From: Acidimicrobiaceae bacterium
GTDB taxonomy: Bacteria > Actinomycetota > Acidimicrobiia > Acidimicrobiales > RAAP-2
Direction: 5' to 3'
Assembly (NCBI GenBank): GCA_003162395.1
Contig: PMON01000070.1
Location: 62,500-126,499 of the forward strand
DNA: 64,000 nt
Shown here piece by piece: positions 4,961 through 19,998 of the stretch. How positions within the stretch are numbered: position 1 is the first letter of the stretch; each line of letters opens with the position of its first letter. Position numbers and translations under genes: made by a program. The notes beneath the pieces were generated by a model that saw only the letters and a list, made by a program, of their open reading frames with translations, did not search any database and was not told where the DNA came from.

Positions 4961-6295
4961 GTGCGAGCTGGGCCAGCGGTGAGGAACCTCGTGTCCGCGC
5001 GAGTCAGCTGGACGCTGCCGCTCCTCGTCGCGATCACCGTGCTCGCCGCAGCCAGCATTGCCGGAGCCAGCAGCTGGATCATCGGGCTTACCTCGAGCAC
5101 GCATCCGGCCCAGTCCCAGGCGAGCGGGATCAATCCTCCGACCGGCGGCACCGCGACGAGCCCGACGTCGTCGAGCCTTCTGGTCTCGTGGACCGCACCG
5201 AGCTCGGGGGCGCACATCACTGGCTACAAGGTCACGCGCAATGGCTCGGCGGTCCCGAGCGGCAGCGGGTGCTACGGCACGATCTCGTCGACGTCGTGCA
5301 CCGACACCGGGCTTGCGACCGGCACGCTGTACACCTACACCGTGAGCTCGATCTCGGGCAACAACTGGCAGAGCACCGCCAGCGCGTCGTTCCAAGGGAC
5401 GACGATGACGACGGTGACGCTCGCGACTGCGGGGACCCACACCCTCACGGTTCCCGCTCACGTCACGACGTTCAGCTTCACGATGACCGGGGCAGGCGGG
5501 GGCGGTGGCATGAGCGGGGGCAGCGGCGGTGCGGGCGCAAAGGTGGCCGGCACGATCACGATCCCGAACACGTCGTCGTCGACGACCTTCACCGTGATCG
5601 TGGGCGGCGCAGGTGGCGGCGGCAGCGGCACGACTACGGGCGGCACGGCGGGGACCGGCTGCGAGCCAGGTGGCGCGGGCGGAGGCCAGGCGTCGAGCGG
5701 TGCGGACGTCGGGGGTGGCGGCGGGGGCTCGACGTGCATCTATCTCCAGGGCAGTCCCGCCGGGACGATCGTGGAGGTCGGTGGTGCCGGCGGCGGGGGA
5801 GGATTGAGCAGCACTGGTAGCGGCGGCGCCGGAGGCGGCGGACCGACGTCGAACCCTGGCACCAATACCGCCGTCGTCGGCACCAACAGCAGCAACAACA
5901 ACGGCGGGGGAGCCGGCTCGACGACCACCACGGGGTGCGCGCCCACGTGCTCGATCGCGAACACCGACGGCGCCTCAGGCGGCGGCGGTCACTCGGGCGC
6001 GGCCGGCACCAGCACGGGCGGTGGAGCCGGCGGCGGCGGAGGGACCAGCGCAACCGACGGCAACGGCGGCGGCGGGGGCGGCGGCGAGGCCCCAGGCGGC
6101 GGCGGGGGCGGCGGCATCGGCAACACACCGGGTGCCGGCGGCGGCGGCGGCTCCGCGTACACGGGAGGGACCTCCACCTACGGCGTCACCGTCACCTCCG
6201 CGAGCAACGGTGGTGGCGGCTCAGGAGGCGCCGCCGGCACCGCTGGTGCGTCCGCGTCGGTGACCTTCACGGGCGTGGGCATCACCGGAGCCTGA
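4961..6295 (+). CDS. Exported glycine-rich protein with fibronectin type III domain
   Basis: A 444-residue exported protein. Residues 15-36 are a hydrophobic signal or anchor segment followed by the motif ASSWIIGLTSSTHPAQSQ. Residues about 58-148 form a fibronectin type III domain (NPPTGGTATSPTSSSLLVSW ... GYKVTRNG ... LATGTLYTYTVSS). The C-terminal 290 residues are Gly/Ser/Thr-rich with long Gly runs, spaced by short beta-type sequences and ending VTSASNGGGGSGGA then ASVTFTG. The glycine-rich half resembles cell-surface proteins that begin with a Val/Thr-rich strand (TATAGTHTLTVP-like) before Gly repeats. No enzymatic motif. The start is GTG 4961, with GTG 4979 as alternative. Its anchor motif recurs in the next two genes, which face it from the opposite strand. 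Confidence 0.75.
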   Translation: MRAGPAVRNLVSARVSWTLPLLVAITVLAAASIAGASSWIIGLTSSTHPAQSQASGINPPTGGTATSPTSSSLLVSWTAPSSGAHITGYKVTRNGSAVPSGSGCYGTISSTSCTDTGLATGTLYTYTVSSISGNNWQSTASASFQGTTMTTVTLATAGTHTLTVPAHVTTFSFTMTGAGGGGGMSGGSGGAGAKVAGTITIPNTSSSTTFTVIVGGAGGGGSGTTTGGTAGTGCEPGGAGGGQASSGADVGGGGGGSTCIYLQGSPAGTIVEVGGAGGGGGLSSTGSGGAGGGGPTSNPGTNTAVVGTNSSNNNGGGAGSTTTTGCAPTCSIANTDGASGGGGHSGAAGTSTGGGAGGGGGTSATDGNGGGGGGGEAPGGGGGGGIGNTPGAGGGGGSAYTGGTSTYGVTVTSASNGGGGSGGAAGTAGASASVTFTGVGITGA

Positions 6296-6381
6296 GGCGC
6301 GGCTTCTCGAGCCACGACCGGCACCGCGCCGGAGTTCGGCTGCCAACGCCCGCACGGTGCCTCCCAACGCTGTGGCCCGAG

Positions 6382-7113
6382 TCAGCTCGTCCACGCGTCA
6401 GTCGCGGGGGACGGCGTGGCGGTCGCAGCACCGCCGGAGGCGACGACGCCAGTGAGCGAGGGCATAGAGAAGTACGCACCCTCGCAGGCCGCAGGCGCGG
6501 ACGTCGTCATGGACGCGTCGTTCGTGAGCGTGACGGTGAGGGTGCCGCTTGCTGCCACCGTGAGGGCAGTCGTCAATGAGTGGACGCTGCCCGACGAGGA
6601 GGAGGCGTAGTTCCACAGCACGTCGCTGGTTGCCGCGGCGCACCCGGCGATCGATCCAGTGAGGTTCGACGCGGTGTAGCCCGTGGCATAGGTGGTGTTG
6701 GTCGGCAGGTCGACGCCGGACACCGTGACCGGGAAGACGTTGGGATTGGTGATCGTCACGACGACGTCACCCGTGCCGCCCGGGTACAGCAGGTTGCTCG
6801 CCGACGGGGAGGCAACGGCGGCAAAGGTGAGGTTCGCCGCCGCCGCCGCCTGCCCCTCGGCCGAGGACCCGGCGTTGAGCCCCGTCAACCAGTTCGTGGC
6901 GGCGTACGCCGCACCGGCGACGAGCACGGCACCGACCAGCCCGGCGACGATCTTGGTGTGCCTCGAGCGTCGAGCGCCGACGCGGCCGGTGGCGGGGGAG
7001 CGAGGCGCTTGAGGAGGCCTCGTCCGTTCGCGCTGGTGCGACGTGCCGGTTCGCGTGAAGCGACCGCTCGCGAACCGCGAACGTCGGTGCTTGCCGCGTG
7101 AAGCCCGTCGCAT
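6382..7113 (-). CDS. Exported Ig-like surface protein, paralogue 1
   Basis: A 243-residue protein: a very basic N-terminal tail (about 50 residues, rich in Arg), one hydrophobic segment (KIVAGLVGAVLVAGAAYA), the motif ATNWLTGLNAGSSAEGQ, then an all-beta domain. The domain has LLYPGGTGDVVVTITNPN, FPVTVSG and a late LTVAASGTLTVTLTND, a pattern of beta-sandwich surface domains in actinobacteria. It ends TPSPATDAWTS. The next gene upstream (7196-7921) is a clear paralogue with the same architecture and end. ATG 7113 has AGAGGAT about 8 bases before it. No catalytic residues or sortase signal are visible; a structural or surface role is the most that can be said. Confidence 0.75.
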   Translation of the reverse strand: MRRASRGKHRRSRFASGRFTRTGTSHQRERTRPPQAPRSPATGRVGARRSRHTKIVAGLVGAVLVAGAAYAATNWLTGLNAGSSAEGQAAAAANLTFAAVASPSASNLLYPGGTGDVVVTITNPNVFPVTVSGVDLPTNTTYATGYTASNLTGSIAGCAAATSDVLWNYASSSSGSVHSLTTALTVAASGTLTVTLTNDASMTTSAPAACEGAYFSMPSLTGVVASGGAATATPSPATDAWTS

Positions 7114-7195
7114 CGTGTCTGGATCCTCTCGGCGTCAGCGTGCCGTCGCGTGCCCGATCCCCCGTTGCGCACGCACGGGGAGGAGGCGCTCCGGC

Positions 7196-7921
7196 TCAGC
7201 TGGTCCAGGCGTCCGTGGCCGGGCTCGTCGTCGCTGTCCCCGCACCGCCGGTGGCGGTGACACCGGTGAGCGATGGCATCGAGAAGAACGTCGCCTGGCA
7301 CGCCGACGGAGCGCTCGCGGTCATCGAGACGTCATTGGTGAACGTGACGGTGAGTGTGCCGCTTGCCGCGACCGTGAGAGGTGCCGTGAGCGTGTGCGAG
7401 GTGCCCGAGACCCCGGTCGAGTAGTTCCAGATGACGTAGCTGGGCGATGCGGCGAGGCAGCCGGTCTGTGTCGTCGTGAGCGCCGAGGTCGTGTAGCCGG
7501 TCGCGTAGGTGACGTTCGTCGGCAGGTTCAGCGCGGTGACCGTCACCGGGAACGGGTTGGGGTTCGTGATCGTGGCGACGGCGTCACCGTTGCCGCCGGG
7601 GAACAACAGGTTCGTGGCCGCGGGGCTTGCCACGGCCGTGACCGTGAGGTTGGCGACCGTCCCCGACTGTGCCTCGGCCGATGAGCCGCCCGCCAGGCCC
7701 ACGGCCCAGTTGGTGGCCGCGTAGGCACCGGTGGCGACGAGGGCCGCGCCGACGAGACCCGACGCGAGCTTGAAGAAGATCGGCATGCGGCGGTAGCGGC
7801 GGCCCGCGCGACGGAGGAGCCCGGGATAGTCGTCAGGGCTCCCGGTGGTCGACATCGACCCCGCGGCGTCGGCTGGCGAACCAGACGAGCTCCTCGTGGT
7901 GCTGCCGCGGGAGTGCAACAT
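7196..7921 (-). CDS. Exported Ig-like surface protein, paralogue 2
   Basis: A 241-residue protein with the same layout as its neighbour: basic Ser/Arg-rich tail, hydrophobic segment (KLASGLVGAALVATGAYA), motif ATNWAVGLAGGSSAEAQ, then a beta domain with LLFPGGNGDAVATITNPN, FPVTVTALNLPTN and SGTLTVTFTNDVSM, ending TTSPATDAWTS. The two proteins align over their whole length and are separated by 82 bases, so they arose by tandem duplication and are probably co-transcribed. ATG at 7921 was chosen because it begins the basic tail and follows AAAGCAGG at suitable distance. Function unknown; the shared NPNPFPVTVT block suggests a fold conserved for assembly or surface display. Confidence 0.75.
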   Translation of the reverse strand: MLHSRGSTTRSSSGSPADAAGSMSTTGSPDDYPGLLRRAGRRYRRMPIFFKLASGLVGAALVATGAYAATNWAVGLAGGSSAEAQSGTVANLTVTAVASPAATNLLFPGGNGDAVATITNPNPFPVTVTALNLPTNVTYATGYTTSALTTTQTGCLAASPSYVIWNYSTGVSGTSHTLTAPLTVAASGTLTVTFTNDVSMTASAPSACQATFFSMPSLTGVTATGGAGTATTSPATDAWTS

Positions 7922-9363: not shown

Positions 9364-12300
9364 GTGCTACGAGGTTCACTTCTAGGGCGCACGACGCGAC
9401 CGCTGCTCGTTGGCGCGGCGTCGCTGACGACAGTGCTCGCACTGACCACACCGGGCGCGGCCGCGCCGCGAGCGGTCCTGACCCGCCAGGGCTCGACGAG
9501 CGCGCTGGCGGCGGTCACCGCAGCGCCGAGGATGCAGCACGGCACCCACGTACTCGGCGCGCTCGCCGCAACCGCGCCTGTGTCGGGCGCGGTTGCGCTT
9601 CGTTTGCCTGACCCCGCTGCGGTGGCGCGCTTCATCGCAGGGGTGTCCAACCCGCGGTCACCTTCGTTCCACCGCTACCTGGCACGGGGCCAATTCGCGG
9701 CCCGTTTCGGACCGCGACCCGCGGCGCTCGATGCCGTGCGAGCTCAGCTCTTGGCCGACGGGCTGCGTCTCACGGGCACGTCGGCGAATCATCTCCTCGT
9801 CACGTTCTCGGGCACGGCCGCCACCGCGCAGGCTGCGTTCCACACCGGTCTCGTGCGCGTCCGTCTCGCCAACGGGACCATCGGGCAGGCAACGACCTCT
9901 GCGGTGCGGCTGCCCGGCGCGATCGCTCGCGACGTCCAGGCCGTGATCGGGTTGGACCAACTCGTCCGAGAGACAAGCGGGCTCAAGCACCTCGGCTCCC
10001 GCCACCATGGCATGACGCCGTCGCCCGCAGCGCCTCGGACGTCCAACGGTGGGCCCGTCGCGTGCGGCGACGCGCTCGAGCAACAAGCGTACGGAGCGCT
10101 GACGGACCAGCAAGTCGCCGCCTCGTACGGCGTCGACCCCCTCTACGGCGCGGGCGACCTTGCGTCGGGCCAGACGATCGACGTCTATGAGCTCGAGCCG
10201 TTCGCCACGTCGGACCTGCAGTCATTCGAGGAGTGCTATTTCGGGGCTGATCACACGAGCCAGCTCACCGTCACGACAGTTGACGGCGGACCCGGCACGG
10301 GCCCAGGCAGCGGCGAGGCGGCGCTCGACGTCGAGGACGTCGCCGCACTCGCGCCGGGGGCGGACATCCACGTGTTCTCTGGTCCGAACATGGACGATCC
10401 ATTCGGACCGCTCGACACCTGGAACGCCATCGCCATCGCGGACGACGCCGGCCAGGTCACGTCGAGCTGGGGGCTGTGCGAGACGAACCTCCAAGAAGGC
10501 GCACCGGGCGTGCCCCAAGTGGAGAACGAGATCTTCGAAGAGACTGCCGCACAGGGCCAGACCGTGTTCTCCGCGGCGGGCGACGACGGCTCGGACGACT
10601 GCGCGAGCCACGACTCGGTCCCGGTTGCGGCCAACCTCTCGGTCGACGACCCGAGCAGCCAGCCCTACGTCACGTCGGTTGGTGGGACCACGATCCTTGA
10701 CGCCACGGAGCCGCCCGTCGAAACCGTGTGGAACAACGGCGACGACGGCGGCGCAGGCGGCGGCGGGATCTCCGAGTTGTGGGCCATGCCGGCTTGGCAG
10801 ACCGCCACCGCGGTCGCCCAGACCTCGTCGACCGAGCCCTGCAGCAACGACCCGAGCGGCACCGCGGACAACTTCCACCTCCAGGGGATCGACACCACGC
10901 TGCCGTCAGGGACGCACTGCCGCGAGGCGCCTGACGTGAGCGCCCTCGCCGACCCGCAGACGGGCATCACGATCGAGTATGGCGGGCAGTGGTTCCAGAT
11001 CGGCGGGACGTCGTCGTCGACGCCGCTGTGGGCCGCGATGCTCGCCGAGATCAGTGCGTCGAGCGGGTGCAACGGGCTCGCGAACGGCGTCGGGTTCGCG
11101 GACCCCTTGCTGTACCAGCTCTCGGCTTCGTCGCCGTCGAACTATGCCGCGGCCTTCAGTGACGTGACGGTTGGCAACAACGACAACCTCGGCGTCGGCG
11201 GTGCAGTGGACTGGCCGGCAGGGGCCGGCTACGACCTCGCGTCGGGGCTCGGCACCCCGCGAGTGACCGATCACAATGGCGCACCAGGACTTGCCGCCCA
11301 GCTCTGCACCCTCGCCGCGGGGACGGAGGGCACCGCGCCACCGGACGTCACCTCGCTCTCGGTGACGAGCGGCGCGGCGAACGGTGGCGGGACGCTCGTG
11401 GTCAACGGCGCCAACTTTGGCGCGTCGCCGGGCTCGATCTACTTCGGCAACGTCGCGGCGGCCGTGGTGACCTGGAGCTCGACCGCGGTCACCGTCGACG
11501 TCCCGGCGTACGCCCCGCCGGCTGGCACCCCTGCGGGCACCGCGGGCAGCGCCGACGTCACGGTCGTCACCGCCGGCGCCACGCCCGAGTCGAGCGCGCC
11601 AGGGGCGGCATCGACCTACCACTACCGGGCGAACGCTCCCAGCGGGGCGCCCGTCGTCGACTACCTGAGTGCGCCGACGGGACCGAGCGCGGGCGGCAAC
11701 GCCGTGACCATCGTGGGCGCGGGGCTCTCCGGCGCGACGGCCGTGCACTTCGGTGACGTCGTGGCGACGATCCTCAGCGTCTCGCACAACAGCGACAACG
11801 AGCTCGCCGTCTCAGTGCCGGCGAGCGACGGCACCTGCGCGGTGTCGGCATCCCAGGGAAGTTGCGCGGTCGCCGTCACGGTGACGACGGCCGCGGGGAC
11901 GAGCTCGTCGCCCGTCACGATCCTGCCCGCCTACCAGGGTCCGATCGTCTTCGCGCCCGATGGCTCGTTCGCCGCGCCCGCGGGCTGCGGGTGCGAGGTG
12001 GTCCCTGCGCCCGACGAGTATGACTACGCGCCGGCGCCGACGATCAGCTCGGTCCTGCCCACGTACGCGAGCGAGAACGGAGGGACGAGCTCGACGATCT
12101 CGGGCACTGGCTTCAACCTGCTCACGTTCGAGTGGGCGAACGTCGGGACTGCCGGACCCAACTTCTCGGAGGACTTCGCCATCGAAGGCGTGACGCCCGA
12201 CGCGCTCACCATCGGGATCACCGCCGGCTCAGCGTCGGTCGGTCCGGTCGCGACCCCGATCTCGGTGCAGTCCTCTGCGGGCCTCTCGAACGTGTCGTCG

Positions 12301-13191
12301 TTCAGCTATGCCGGGACGCCCACGCTGCTGAGCATCTCCAAGCACGTGGCGGCACAGGCGAGTCCCGGGACGCTCCACGTGACCGGCGCGGGGCTGGACG
12401 ACGTCACGAGCGTCGAGCTCCAGCTCCAAGCGCCGTTCAGCTTCTTGTCGTCGACGTCGACCACCATCACGAGCCAGACGAGCACGTCGCTCACCGTCGC
12501 GATCCCGCAGGGGTTCACGTACCCGGCCGACGTCCTGGTGTGCACCGTCACGGGGTGCAGTGTGCCCAACCCGGCGGTCGACACGCTCACGCTCGCGTAC
12601 CCGGGACGACCGGTCGTGAGCTCGAGTCGACCGTCGTCAGGGCCCGCGCACGGCGGCACGCTGGTCACGATCCAGGGCTCGCTCGACTCTGCGGTGACGG
12701 CCGTCCACTTCGGAGGGGCCATCGCCACGATCGAGTCGATGCCAGAGCTGACGGCGAGTGGCCCGATCACGGTCCTCGCGCCGTCCGGCCACGCGGGCTC
12801 GAAGGTCGACGTCACGATCTCGACGCTCGGCGGCACGGTGACGCAGCCGCCGAGGCCGACGAGTGCCACGACAACTGCCGCCGTGTTCACCTACATGGCG
12901 AGCACGCCCACGGCGCCGCTTGGCCTCTCGGTGCACATCGGCGTGCGGAGCCTCGATGCCTCGTGGAAGTCACCGAGCAACAACGGTGGTGACTCGGTGA
13001 CGGGCTACCTCGTCACGGCGGTGTCGAAGGGACGGAAGACCGTGGTGCTCCACATCGGCGCCTCGACGCACGACGCCGTCGTGCAAGGTCTGACCCCGAA
13101 CGTCAACTGGGTGCTCACGGTCCGGGCAACGAACAAGCTCGGGTCGGGCTTCGCGGCGACGTCACCCCCGCGCGAGCCCGTGGGGGCCTAG
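9364..13191 (+). CDS. Secreted sedolisin (S53, kumamolisin-type) protease with TIG and FnIII repeats
   Basis: A 1275-residue exported acid protease. An N-terminal signal (residues 10-35) is followed by a Pro-kumamolisin activation domain (about 60-200; FHRYLARGQFAARFGP). The catalytic domain carries the Glu/Asp pair E318 and D322 (SGEAALDVED), the oxyanion Asp D407 (SAAGDDG) and Ser550 in GGTSSSTPLW, with the terminal GYDLASGLGTP calcium-site region. It is therefore predicted active. Residues 660-1180 contain about five IPT/TIG-like beta domains (for example SGGNAVTIVGAGLSGATAVHFG), and a fibronectin III domain closes the protein (PLGLSVHIGVRSLDASWKSP). Ordinary sedolisins end after the catalytic domain, so the 600-residue tail is unusual and probably binds surface or substrate. 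GTG start with a strong GGGAGG site. Confidence 0.92.
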   Translation: MLRGSLLGRTTRPLLVGAASLTTVLALTTPGAAAPRAVLTRQGSTSALAAVTAAPRMQHGTHVLGALAATAPVSGAVALRLPDPAAVARFIAGVSNPRSPSFHRYLARGQFAARFGPRPAALDAVRAQLLADGLRLTGTSANHLLVTFSGTAATAQAAFHTGLVRVRLANGTIGQATTSAVRLPGAIARDVQAVIGLDQLVRETSGLKHLGSRHHGMTPSPAAPRTSNGGPVACGDALEQQAYGALTDQQVAASYGVDPLYGAGDLASGQTIDVYELEPFATSDLQSFEECYFGADHTSQLTVTTVDGGPGTGPGSGEAALDVEDVAALAPGADIHVFSGPNMDDPFGPLDTWNAIAIADDAGQVTSSWGLCETNLQEGAPGVPQVENEIFEETAAQGQTVFSAAGDDGSDDCASHDSVPVAANLSVDDPSSQPYVTSVGGTTILDATEPPVETVWNNGDDGGAGGGGISELWAMPAWQTATAVAQTSSTEPCSNDPSGTADNFHLQGIDTTLPSGTHCREAPDVSALADPQTGITIEYGGQWFQIGGTSSSTPLWAAMLAEISASSGCNGLANGVGFADPLLYQLSASSPSNYAAAFSDVTVGNNDNLGVGGAVDWPAGAGYDLASGLGTPRVTDHNGAPGLAAQLCTLAAGTEGTAPPDVTSLSVTSGAANGGGTLVVNGANFGASPGSIYFGNVAAAVVTWSSTAVTVDVPAYAPPAGTPAGTAGSADVTVVTAGATPESSAPGAASTYHYRANAPSGAPVVDYLSAPTGPSAGGNAVTIVGAGLSGATAVHFGDVVATILSVSHNSDNELAVSVPASDGTCAVSASQGSCAVAVTVTTAAGTSSSPVTILPAYQGPIVFAPDGSFAAPAGCGCEVVPAPDEYDYAPAPTISSVLPTYASENGGTSSTISGTGFNLLTFEWANVGTAGPNFSEDFAIEGVTPDALTIGITAGSASVGPVATPISVQSSAGLSNVSSFSYAGTPTLLSISKHVAAQASPGTLHVTGAGLDDVTSVELQLQAPFSFLSSTSTTITSQTSTSLTVAIPQGFTYPADVLVCTVTGCSVPNPAVDTLTLAYPGRPVVSSSRPSSGPAHGGTLVTIQGSLDSAVTAVHFGGAIATIESMPELTASGPITVLAPSGHAGSKVDVTISTLGGTVTQPPRPTSATTTAAVFTYMASTPTAPLGLSVHIGVRSLDASWKSPSNNGGDSVTGYLVTAVSKGRKTVVLHIGASTHDAVVQGLTPNVNWVLTVRATNKLGSGFAATSPPREPVGA

Positions 13192-16773: not shown

Positions 16774-17865
16774 ATGAGGGTGAACGCCATGAGAGTTCTA
16801 CTGGTGGGCATTAGTGGGTTACTAATCGTCACGTTAGGTACGGCCGCGGGAGCTGTACCAAGAAGTGCGCACGCGTCACCCAAGTATGTGTTTGGCATTG
16901 ATACCTTCGTAGCCGACAATTGCCAACCACAAAGTCTCATTGATCAGTGGGCAACGACCCAAGTATCACAATTCAAGGCTCTTGGTGCAAATGCTATTGG
17001 TCTTGCATTTCCTCTCTACACCGCATCGCTTACGTCCAACAACGTGTACGCGAAATCGGTGTGCAATTACAGTTCAATCTTTCAGAGTCCCACGCCCGCT
17101 GTTCTTGCAAGTATTGTGACAATCGCCCACAATGCGGGGCTTGAAGTCGCTCTTCGACCTTTGGTCGATGAGCGACTTCTCAAAAAAAAGACCCCGAGCT
17201 CCTGGCGGGGCATTCTGGCTCCGAAAAATCCCAATGCGTGGTTCAAGAGTTATTTGAGGGTGCTTCGCCCGTACCTTCTCATGGCTCAAGCCAACAATGT
17301 TCAATTCTTCTCCATTTCAACCGAGTTAAACAGCCTCGCGCATGCGGAAATTTGGCCTGGCGCAATCTCCTCGAGCCGAAAGATCTACAAGGGCGGATTG
17401 GAATTTACCTATTCCTGGGCTACGCCAGTTACGAAGACATGGCAAGGTGGCACGTCCAATGCAATAGATGCGTATCCAAAAATCCCGAACGCAAAATCGA
17501 ACGAGAGCGTTAAGGTTCTCGTGTCTCAGTGGAATCACTTGCTGAAGGCGCAATCGATCTACAAGATCCCGAATATCTCGGCAGTCACAATCGACGAAGT
17601 TGGCATTACTGCACAAGACGGCGAGTATCAGAACCCCTCGGTCGCAGGGCTCTCCTTCAAGAAGCACCCGTTCAATCAGGCCATCCAAGGACATTGGTTT
17701 ACTGCAGCATGCGACTTCATGAAGCAGCACAAAATGAGAGGGATCTTCTACTGGGGTCCGTGGCTGGGCATAGACTCGGGTTTACTACCTGTGACTCCAG
17801 ATCCGAAACTCGCGACCGACATTCAACCTGCAGGGCAAGCTGCAATTGAGAAGTGCTTCGCTTGA
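16774..17865 (+). CDS. Secreted TIM-barrel glycoside hydrolase, GH113-like
   Basis: A 363-residue protein with a signal peptide (residues 6-32, cleavage near SAHAS). The barrel shows FKALGANAIGLAFPLYTAS, then LEVALRPLVDERLL with SSWRGILAPKNPNAWFKSY, and NNVQFFSISTELNSL, where E is the likely acid/base; IPNISAVTIDEVG carries the second Glu or Asp. These follow the GH113/GTA-type TIM-barrel pattern (LRPLVD, W.G.I.P, AWF.SY, S.STEL), a family including beta-mannanases. Base composition is markedly poorer in GC than every neighbour, with frequent A/T third positions, so the gene was probably acquired recently. It has a strong GAGGAGGA site 10 bases before the ATG. Substrate uncertain. Confidence 0.75.
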   Translation: MRVNAMRVLLVGISGLLIVTLGTAAGAVPRSAHASPKYVFGIDTFVADNCQPQSLIDQWATTQVSQFKALGANAIGLAFPLYTASLTSNNVYAKSVCNYSSIFQSPTPAVLASIVTIAHNAGLEVALRPLVDERLLKKKTPSSWRGILAPKNPNAWFKSYLRVLRPYLLMAQANNVQFFSISTELNSLAHAEIWPGAISSSRKIYKGGLEFTYSWATPVTKTWQGGTSNAIDAYPKIPNAKSNESVKVLVSQWNHLLKAQSIYKIPNISAVTIDEVGITAQDGEYQNPSVAGLSFKKHPFNQAIQGHWFTAACDFMKQHKMRGIFYWGPWLGIDSGLLPVTPDPKLATDIQPAGQAAIEKCFA

Positions 17866-18030: not shown

Positions 18031-19998
18031 CTAGGCCCCGTCCTCTTCGGCGGTCGTCGCCCCGGCCACAGGCTGTTCGACGCCGCCGGGACCGGTCACT
18101 GGCGAGCTGTGCGGCGACGCGTCGCTCCGGGGCGCGACGTCGAGCGGCATCCGCACGCGAGCGACCACCACGTCGGCACGCTTGCGCAGCGCCGACCGCA
18201 AGACGAGGTCGATGTGGTTGTGCAAGAGCCGATAGCGCAGGCGGCGAGGCTCGACGACCGGGATCAGGACCACGATCTGGCGGTCGCCCTTCGCCCTGGC
18301 TCGGTCGATGTAGTCGACGATCGGCTCCACCACCGACGCGAACTCGGTGTGCAGCACCTCGAGCGGGGGACCGGGGTGCCACGCCCGCCAGAGCGCCTCG
18401 ATCTCGGGACCGTCACGGCGGTCCTCATCGGGGTAGTCGAGCGAGACGTACAGCGCCACCACGTCCCCGCCGAGCGAGAGTGCCTCACCGATCGCGCGCT
18501 GGGTGATCGCCGACACGTTGTTGATCGGCACGATGATCAGCGACGGCCGTGCGACGGGAGGGCCGGGCACGGATCCCACCTTGATCTCCGCGGCTGCGCG
18601 CCGGTAGTACGCGTTGACCCGGTGGAAGAGCACGATGAACGCGGGGATCGCGACCACGACGACCCAGGCGCCCGCCTGGAACTTCGTGATCAGGAAGATC
18701 ACCGTCGCGAGCAGCGTGACGAGTGCGCCGAGGCCGTTCACGGCGGCGCGGTACTGCCAGCGAGCGGGCCGCGTTCGCCACCAGTGCACCACGAGACCCG
18801 ACTGCGACAGCGTGAAGCCGGTGAAGACCCCGATCGCGAAGAGCGGGATCATCGAGTTGGTGCTGCCGCCGACAGCGACCAAGAGTGCCGCGGACAGGGC
18901 CGAGAGCACCAAGATCCCGTTGCTGAAGACCTGCCGATCGCCCCGGAGACCGAAGAAGTGGGGCAGGTAGTTGTCACGCGCGAGCAGGCTCGTGAGGATG
19001 GGCAGCCCGCCGAACGAGGTGTTCGCCGCGAGCGCGAGCACGATCGTGATGGTGAGCGACACCACGTAGTACGCCCAGTGCCGCCCGACCGCCATGCCCA
19101 TGATCTGGCTGAGGGCCGTCTGACCCGACCGAGGAGCGACGTGCCATCGCTGCGCGAGCACGGCGAGGCCGAGGAGCATCGTGCCGAGGATCGAGCCGAG
19201 CAGGACCTCGGTGCGCTTCGCGCGTAGCACCCGTGGCTCCTTGAACAGCGGGACGCCGTTCGCGATCGCCTCGACACCGGTGAGCGCGCTGCAGCCCGCG
19301 GAGAATGCCTTGAGGACCAAGAGCACGGACACGACCTGCAGCCCGTGCATGGCGAGGAGCGAGCGCCCCGGCTGCGCCTCGTGCAGGCCGAGCGGGTGGA
19401 TGAGCCCGACGGCGATGATCGCGAGCAGGCCGACGACGAACAGCAGCGTGGGCAGCAGGAACGCCCGGGCGCTGGCGCCCAGGCCACGCAGGTTGAGCAG
19501 CGTGATGACGACGAGGAACGCGAGGCACAACGGGACCGTCAGCGACGCGAGGGACGGGAAGGCCGACGTGAGAGAGCCCACCCCCGCGGCGATCGACACC
19601 GTGACGGTCAGGATGTAGTCGACGATCAGCGAGCCGCCGGCGAGGAGGCTCGCTCCGACACCCAGGTTCTCGCGGGACACGGCGTAGGCGCCGCCGCCGG
19701 CGGGATACGCGTCGATGACCTGGCGGTAGGAGATCACCAAGATGGCGAGCAGCGCGATGATCGCGAGGGTGATCGGCAGGATCAGGTCCAGGGCGCTCGC
19801 GCCGCCGACCGCGAGCACGACGATGATCGCCTCGGGACCGTAGGCAACCGACGTCAGCGCGTCGAGGGACAGCGCCGAGAGTCCCTCGACCGGCGTGATC
19901 TGCTCGTCTGACGCGTCGCTCGACCGGAGCGGTCTTCCGATCAGCTGGTTCCAGATCGAGCGGCCGTGCCGATCGCCGAGATCGAGACCTGGCGCCAC
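18031..19998 (-). CDS. KimA-type potassium permease (APC superfamily)
   Basis: A 655-residue transporter. Twelve predicted spans follow the cytoplasmic start. SALSLDALTSVAYGPEAIIV is the signature of KimA (YdaO) K+/H+ symporters, and YPAGGGAYAVSRENLG, FSAGCSALTGVEAIANGVP and ANTSFGGLPILTSLLARDNY are conserved APC elements. After the last span (about residue 480) a universal-stress-like domain begins (PSLIIVPINNVSAITQRAIG ... VVALYVSLDYP). KimA proteins bring in K+ and are controlled by c-di-AMP. The protein is slightly longer than Bacillus KimA (607). It starts with GTG. A stretch before the start has partial resemblance to the c-di-AMP riboswitch but is unproven. Confidence 0.88.
   Translation of the reverse strand: MAPGLDLGDRHGRSIWNQLIGRPLRSSDASDEQITPVEGLSALSLDALTSVAYGPEAIIVVLAVGGASALDLILPITLAIIALLAILVISYRQVIDAYPAGGGAYAVSRENLGVGASLLAGGSLIVDYILTVTVSIAAGVGSLTSAFPSLASLTVPLCLAFLVVITLLNLRGLGASARAFLLPTLLFVVGLLAIIAVGLIHPLGLHEAQPGRSLLAMHGLQVVSVLLVLKAFSAGCSALTGVEAIANGVPLFKEPRVLRAKRTEVLLGSILGTMLLGLAVLAQRWHVAPRSGQTALSQIMGMAVGRHWAYYVVSLTITIVLALAANTSFGGLPILTSLLARDNYLPHFFGLRGDRQVFSNGILVLSALSAALLVAVGGSTNSMIPLFAIGVFTGFTLSQSGLVVHWWRTRPARWQYRAAVNGLGALVTLLATVIFLITKFQAGAWVVVVAIPAFIVLFHRVNAYYRRAAAEIKVGSVPGPPVARPSLIIVPINNVSAITQRAIGEALSLGGDVVALYVSLDYPDEDRRDGPEIEALWRAWHPGPPLEVLHTEFASVVEPIVDYIDRARAKGDRQIVVLIPVVEPRRLRYRLLHNHIDLVLRSALRKRADVVVARVRMPLDVAPRSDASPHSSPVTGPGGVEQPVAGATTAEEDGA

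Follow-up and report, generated by a model that had tools for sequence, protein, structure and literature searches.

TasA of Bacillus subtilis carries an N-terminal donor strand and TapA a similar N-terminus (PMC9674648, PMC10151520), and in the archaeal thread protein Saci_0406 a conserved YYY follows the signal peptidase I (SPase I) site, with Saci_0405 as a putative donor-only cap (PMC9715654). We analysed a 64-kb stretch of DNA (the window) from an Acidimicrobiaceae assembly of 2.65 Mb that is 86.7% complete. Three neighbouring genes in it encode exported proteins that share a Trp-containing segment just after the hydrophobic signal segment. By analogy with the Bacillus biofilm-fibre proteins, our analysis suggests that the two protein kinds involved, one with an FnIII domain and one Ig-like, assemble together outside the cell rather than share a special cutting enzyme. 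The features concerned, in window coordinates, are:

4961..6295, plus strand: P0001, with a signal segment, the Trp segment, an FnIII domain and a long glycine-rich region (open reading frame and translation)
5066..5119, plus strand: shared segment ASSWIIGLTSSTHPAQSQ of P0001, behind A-G-A
5135..5386, plus strand: FnIII domain of P0001 (Pfam PF00041, fn3; residues 59-142, E 6e-12)
6382..7113, minus strand: P0002, Ig-like exported protein, paralogue of P0003
6850..6900 (read 6900-6850), minus strand: shared segment ATNWLTGLNAGSSAEGQ of P0002, behind A-Y-A
7196..7921, minus strand: P0003, Ig-like exported protein, paralogue of P0002; likely start ATG at 7921 (MLHSRG)
7667..7717 (read 7717-7667), minus strand: shared segment ATNWAVGLAGGSSAEAQ of P0003, behind A-Y-A

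With the FnIII gene on the plus strand and both Ig-like genes on the minus strand, the genes converge. P0001 has a GTG start codon, its exact start being uncertain, and an orthologue is present in a same-genus genome (G001); the longer open frame upstream of the P0003 ATG is probably non-coding. P0002 and P0003 are 61% identical and, since they are paralogues, two of the three motif occurrences are not independent: the trio is one duplicated Ig-like protein and one unrelated FnIII protein. The W-x-x-G-L motif reported in the first-pass annotation is present as described, all three quoted peptides being found in the translations of P0001, P0002 and P0003. Its view that non-homologous exported proteins (FnIII and Ig-like) share the segment also holds, and the segment recurs with both kinds across genomes.

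Over the 64 kb, read in six frames, the only W-x-x-G-L motifs that follow a hydrophobic stretch were those of these three genes, and a profile of the segment matched only in the same three genes of the 2.65-Mb assembly at E ≤ 1 (genome-wide statements here are profile searches of the assembly). The motif, which the annotation had proposed to look for genome-wide, was absent from other exported proteins of this genome, an outcome that the annotation had named as counting against its proposal. Because it is confined to three genes, with three matches in the whole assembly, the segment is not a general export signal, a reading that we rejected, and belongs to this gene group. The exported FnIII-containing protein encoded 3 kb away (9364-13191, plus strand), a large protein with pro-kumamolisin activation, TIG and FnIII domains, is without the shared segment. 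Further along the window, a GH113-like exported protein is encoded at 16774-17865 (plus strand) with a G+C content of 57% vs about 69% around it, and this stretch may be foreign DNA.

The gene pair recurs in other genomes, among them those of many soil actinobacteria. An Ig-like gene with the Trp segment was present at 24 of 26 loci from named public genomes, and at 19 of these 24 an FnIII gene lay directly downstream on the same strand; all 19 such partners have a Trp just after the signal segment. One locus (L069) ends inside the Ig-like gene, and the same-genus genome G001, which matches it in sequence, has the P0001 orthologue on a separate contig, while at four cassettes (L073, L074, L075 and L091) an adjacent FnIII partner was not seen. 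Cassette carriers include Acidimicrobiia, Amnibacterium, a Pseudonocardiales MAG and Geodermatophilus, and the named records closest to the window are mostly Acidimicrobiaceae/Acidimicrobiales MAGs. The cassette is patchily distributed in the order: of 298 genomes sampled, the window genome and four others gave a strong match. C-terminally the partners differ: some have the FnIII domain only, others a glycine-rich region or repeats of the Big type. Four close P0001 relatives (L071, L078, L081 and L083) keep the Trp segment and the FnIII domain and, where P0001 has its glycine-rich region, carry a C-terminal domain of another kind.

Across the Ig-like N-termini (n = 28) the segment is nearly fixed, as ATNWxVGLxxGSSGExQS. 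In the FnIII partners (n = 20) the Gly of W-x-x-G-L is not conserved and the pattern is W-x-hydrophobic-x-hydrophobic; in both kinds a Gly/Ser-rich stretch comes next, and the Trp is present in 28/28 Ig-like and 20/20 FnIII sequences (its position was set by hand in five N-terminal segments). A hydrophobic residue stands at +2 in 85% and at +4 in 90% of the 20 partners, and at +1 and +3 in 30% and 10%, an alternation reached in none of 100,000 permutations; since related sequences are treated as independent, these conservation counts, like the matrix counts below, somewhat overstate the evidence. When FnIII partners were scored with a matrix made from the Ig-like N-termini only, 14 of 20 ranked above all 86 controls (other signal- or membrane-segment proteins from the same loci). 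The score of P0001 itself was equalled or exceeded by two of the 86, P0001-type partners scoring lower on this rigid matrix because the spacing after GL differs. By these sequence comparisons, the likeness between the segments exceeds chance. The segment is, moreover, an aromatic/hydrophobic one at the predicted mature start, as is usual for TasA/camelysin proteins.

The Ig-like protein matched no Pfam or NCBIfam family above cut-off, and a PDB sequence search gave weak matches only, below the cut-offs. Pfam Peptidase_M73 (TasA/camelysin) did not match P0002 or P0003 at E ≤ 1 in a search whose HMMER filters may drop very weak matches. The structural model of the Ig-like protein (174 residues, mean pLDDT 71.7, pTM 0.68) is all-beta from residue 26, and its first 20 residues mostly have a pLDDT below 50, as a loose tail would. 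Matches of this model to PDB folds were weak and of a generic sandwich type; TasA was not among the rows, which does not exclude TasA likeness. In the P0001 model the FnIII domain has a pLDDT of about 90 and the glycine-rich part is poor. A literature search of incomplete coverage found no paper on such proteins in Actinobacteria.

We propose that the mature proteins begin with the shared segment, that ordinary SPase I would free it, and that the freed segment would act as an edge (donor) strand inserting into the Ig-like beta-sandwich. Ig-like subunits would then polymerise via the inserted strand. The FnIII protein, because its fold is complete on its own, would donate a strand and not accept one, and would start or tip the polymer, on which it would display a cargo that varies between FnIII alone, a glycine-rich region and Big-type repeats. 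Such a mode of working would resemble that of TasA/TapA, without a dedicated SipW. That the segment is a mature N-terminus and donor strand of a two-component, TasA/TapA-like system served by an ordinary peptidase is a proposition we consider evenly balanced. The fuller picture is put forward more tentatively, as somewhat below an even chance: an undescribed actinobacterial surface fibre in which an Ig-like donor-strand polymer forms after the action of the ordinary signal peptidase and carries an FnIII tip with the same strand and interchangeable cargo.

Several observations favour a donor strand: the adjacency of the two genes, both with the segment, at 19 of 24 loci and in the window; the hydrophobic alternation; the 14 of 20 partners that score over the controls; the W-P-V-T-V of the partner in the L128 cassette, which lay outside the training set of the matrix; the mostly matching AYW/AAW starts of distant pairs; the all-beta Ig-like model with its loose N-terminal tail; and, from the literature, the similar logic of TasA/TapA and of the archaeal thread, which is processed by SPase I. 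Against it, the low pLDDT of the segment would suit a plain linker equally, the PDB fold matches are weak and generic, an adjacent FnIII partner was not seen in four cassettes, and the AYW class, to which the distant pairs belong, is without the alternation pattern.

The first-pass annotation had offered another explanation, namely that a dedicated enzyme, either SipW-type or an unfamiliar signal peptidase, recognises the segment, whose place directly behind the signal would suit this. What precedes the Trp bears on this: strict A-x-A is found there in 18/28 Ig-like and 18/20 FnIII sequences, with S-x-A or A-x-G in most others. Small residues thus stand at -3 and -1 after the hydrophobic segment, as in ordinary Sec/SPase I substrates, and most of these sites would suit SPase I of the ordinary kind. 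Cleavage before the Trp by the ordinary enzyme, an outcome that the annotation had itself set against its proposal, is therefore plausible from the -3/-1 residues. Two ordinary SPase I genes, both of the Ser-Lys kind, are present in the window genome (SGSMEPTL...DLVKRI and SLSMYPTL...DLVKRI); they lie in tandem (G000:C2:18588-19729; L022, L023), and in one of them SLSMYPTL replaces the usual SGSMEPTL. Elsewhere in this genome (G000:C75, about 18890-19700; L024) a 124-aa S26 protein adjoins a nickel-SOD-like gene and is probably the maturation protease of this nickel superoxide dismutase-like neighbour. No SipW-type peptidase reached the TIGR02228 cut-off in the window genome, both SPase I and the 124-aa S26 protein falling below it. 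In the relatives panel, TIGR02228 had no match at E ≤ 1e-9 in five cassette genomes (G000, G001, G006, G025 and G073, the last counted as without a match since it is not among the genomes listed as matching), and the S26 active-site motif of the searched form was not found in any real gene at the cassette loci; these searches cover assemblies of 64-90% completeness and see known families only. TIGR02228 genes over the cut-off are found in 6/18 further cassette genomes, which could speak for a dedicated enzyme, but this rate is near the background of 38/148 relatives. In some cases Ser-His SipW-type genes of relatives adjoin exported proteins with more TasA-like starts, AFATY, AAFTD or ALGAF (L095, L106 and perhaps L102), so the search works, and those genes look like systems apart from the Ig/FnIII cassette. 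With the TIGR02228 and S26 searches of genome, relatives and cassette loci negative, the dedicated or atypical signal peptidase that the annotation had called for was rejected, none being found in the window genome, in four cassette relatives or beside the cassettes examined, and we regard its recognition of the segment as unlikely.

The small -1/-3 residues before the Trp in most sequences likewise tell against an anchor, with the signal left uncleaved, or the Trp placed at the membrane or cell wall, so that both proteins would be held at the surface. The Ig-like proteins do have strong hydrophobic segments and long basic leaders, and interfacial Trp is common beside membrane helices, but the hydrophobic alternation continues beyond the Trp, and we think anchoring improbable. 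Equally little probability is given to the 5' ends having a shared ancestry without a shared function, through signal regions exchanged or duplicated between neighbours. Exchange of 5' ends is possible between neighbouring genes, and the window's Ig-like genes are clearly a duplicated pair; however, most pairs share a pattern and not an exact sequence, and diverged pairs in several groups of actinobacteria still have the pattern.

Distant Ig-like relatives, in this family and across the phylum, have AYF/AYW/AAW starts and then a TxGxGSG-like sequence in the same place, and most are neighboured by an FnIII-type or Big-type protein whose start falls in this class too (L063-L065, L112-L119). The two classes split 20/20 vs 0/11, a by-eye reading of the alignment in pairs that share descent, and so an illustration rather than a test. 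Because W-x-hydrophobic-x-hydrophobic is absent there, the donor-strand proposal would need another register in the AYW class. Since these AYF/AYW-TxGxGSG starts occupy the same position, the likeness to TasA/camelysin drawn in the first-pass annotation is apt as a way of working; as family membership it is not supported, with no Peptidase_M73 match at E ≤ 1 and no SipW found.

If our proposal is true, two-component donor-strand fibres of TasA/TapA type would exist in Actinomycetota, including uncultured soil Acidimicrobiia, and would need no dedicated peptidase, their tip domains being open to exchange. A family that has no Pfam or NCBIfam model would gain a concrete, testable role, and a common N-terminus otherwise taken for an export signal would be explained.

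Close to the pair described here are those of other Actinomycetota (L063-L065, L112-L119), whose Ig-like proteins are related, with LYPGG-GD and NPNP-PV motifs in most, and which share the gene order and an aromatic start in both partners. They differ in having an aromatic and TxGxGSG-like start, against W-x-hydrophobic-x-hydrophobic, GSS and Q here, and in their longer partners, some with Big repeats. With Saci_0406/Saci_0405 our pair has in common an aromatic motif that is conserved behind an ordinary SPase I site, and a candidate donor-only neighbour (PMC9715654). The archaeal protein itself carries glycosylation and isopeptide links, and the likeness to it is one of arrangement. In contrast to the TasA/TapA/SipW fibre of B. 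subtilis, neither SipW nor a camelysin-family match in Pfam or NCBIfam was found here, the partner is an FnIII protein with variable cargo, and the Trp pattern is unlike that of TasA. Like that fibre, our pair, known from sequences and single-chain models, nevertheless combines an exported subunit, a beta-sandwich there and predicted all-beta here, with another exported protein from a neighbouring gene (PMC9674648, PMC10151520), and in both systems the two proteins have in common an N-terminal segment that bears hydrophobic residues directly behind the signal.
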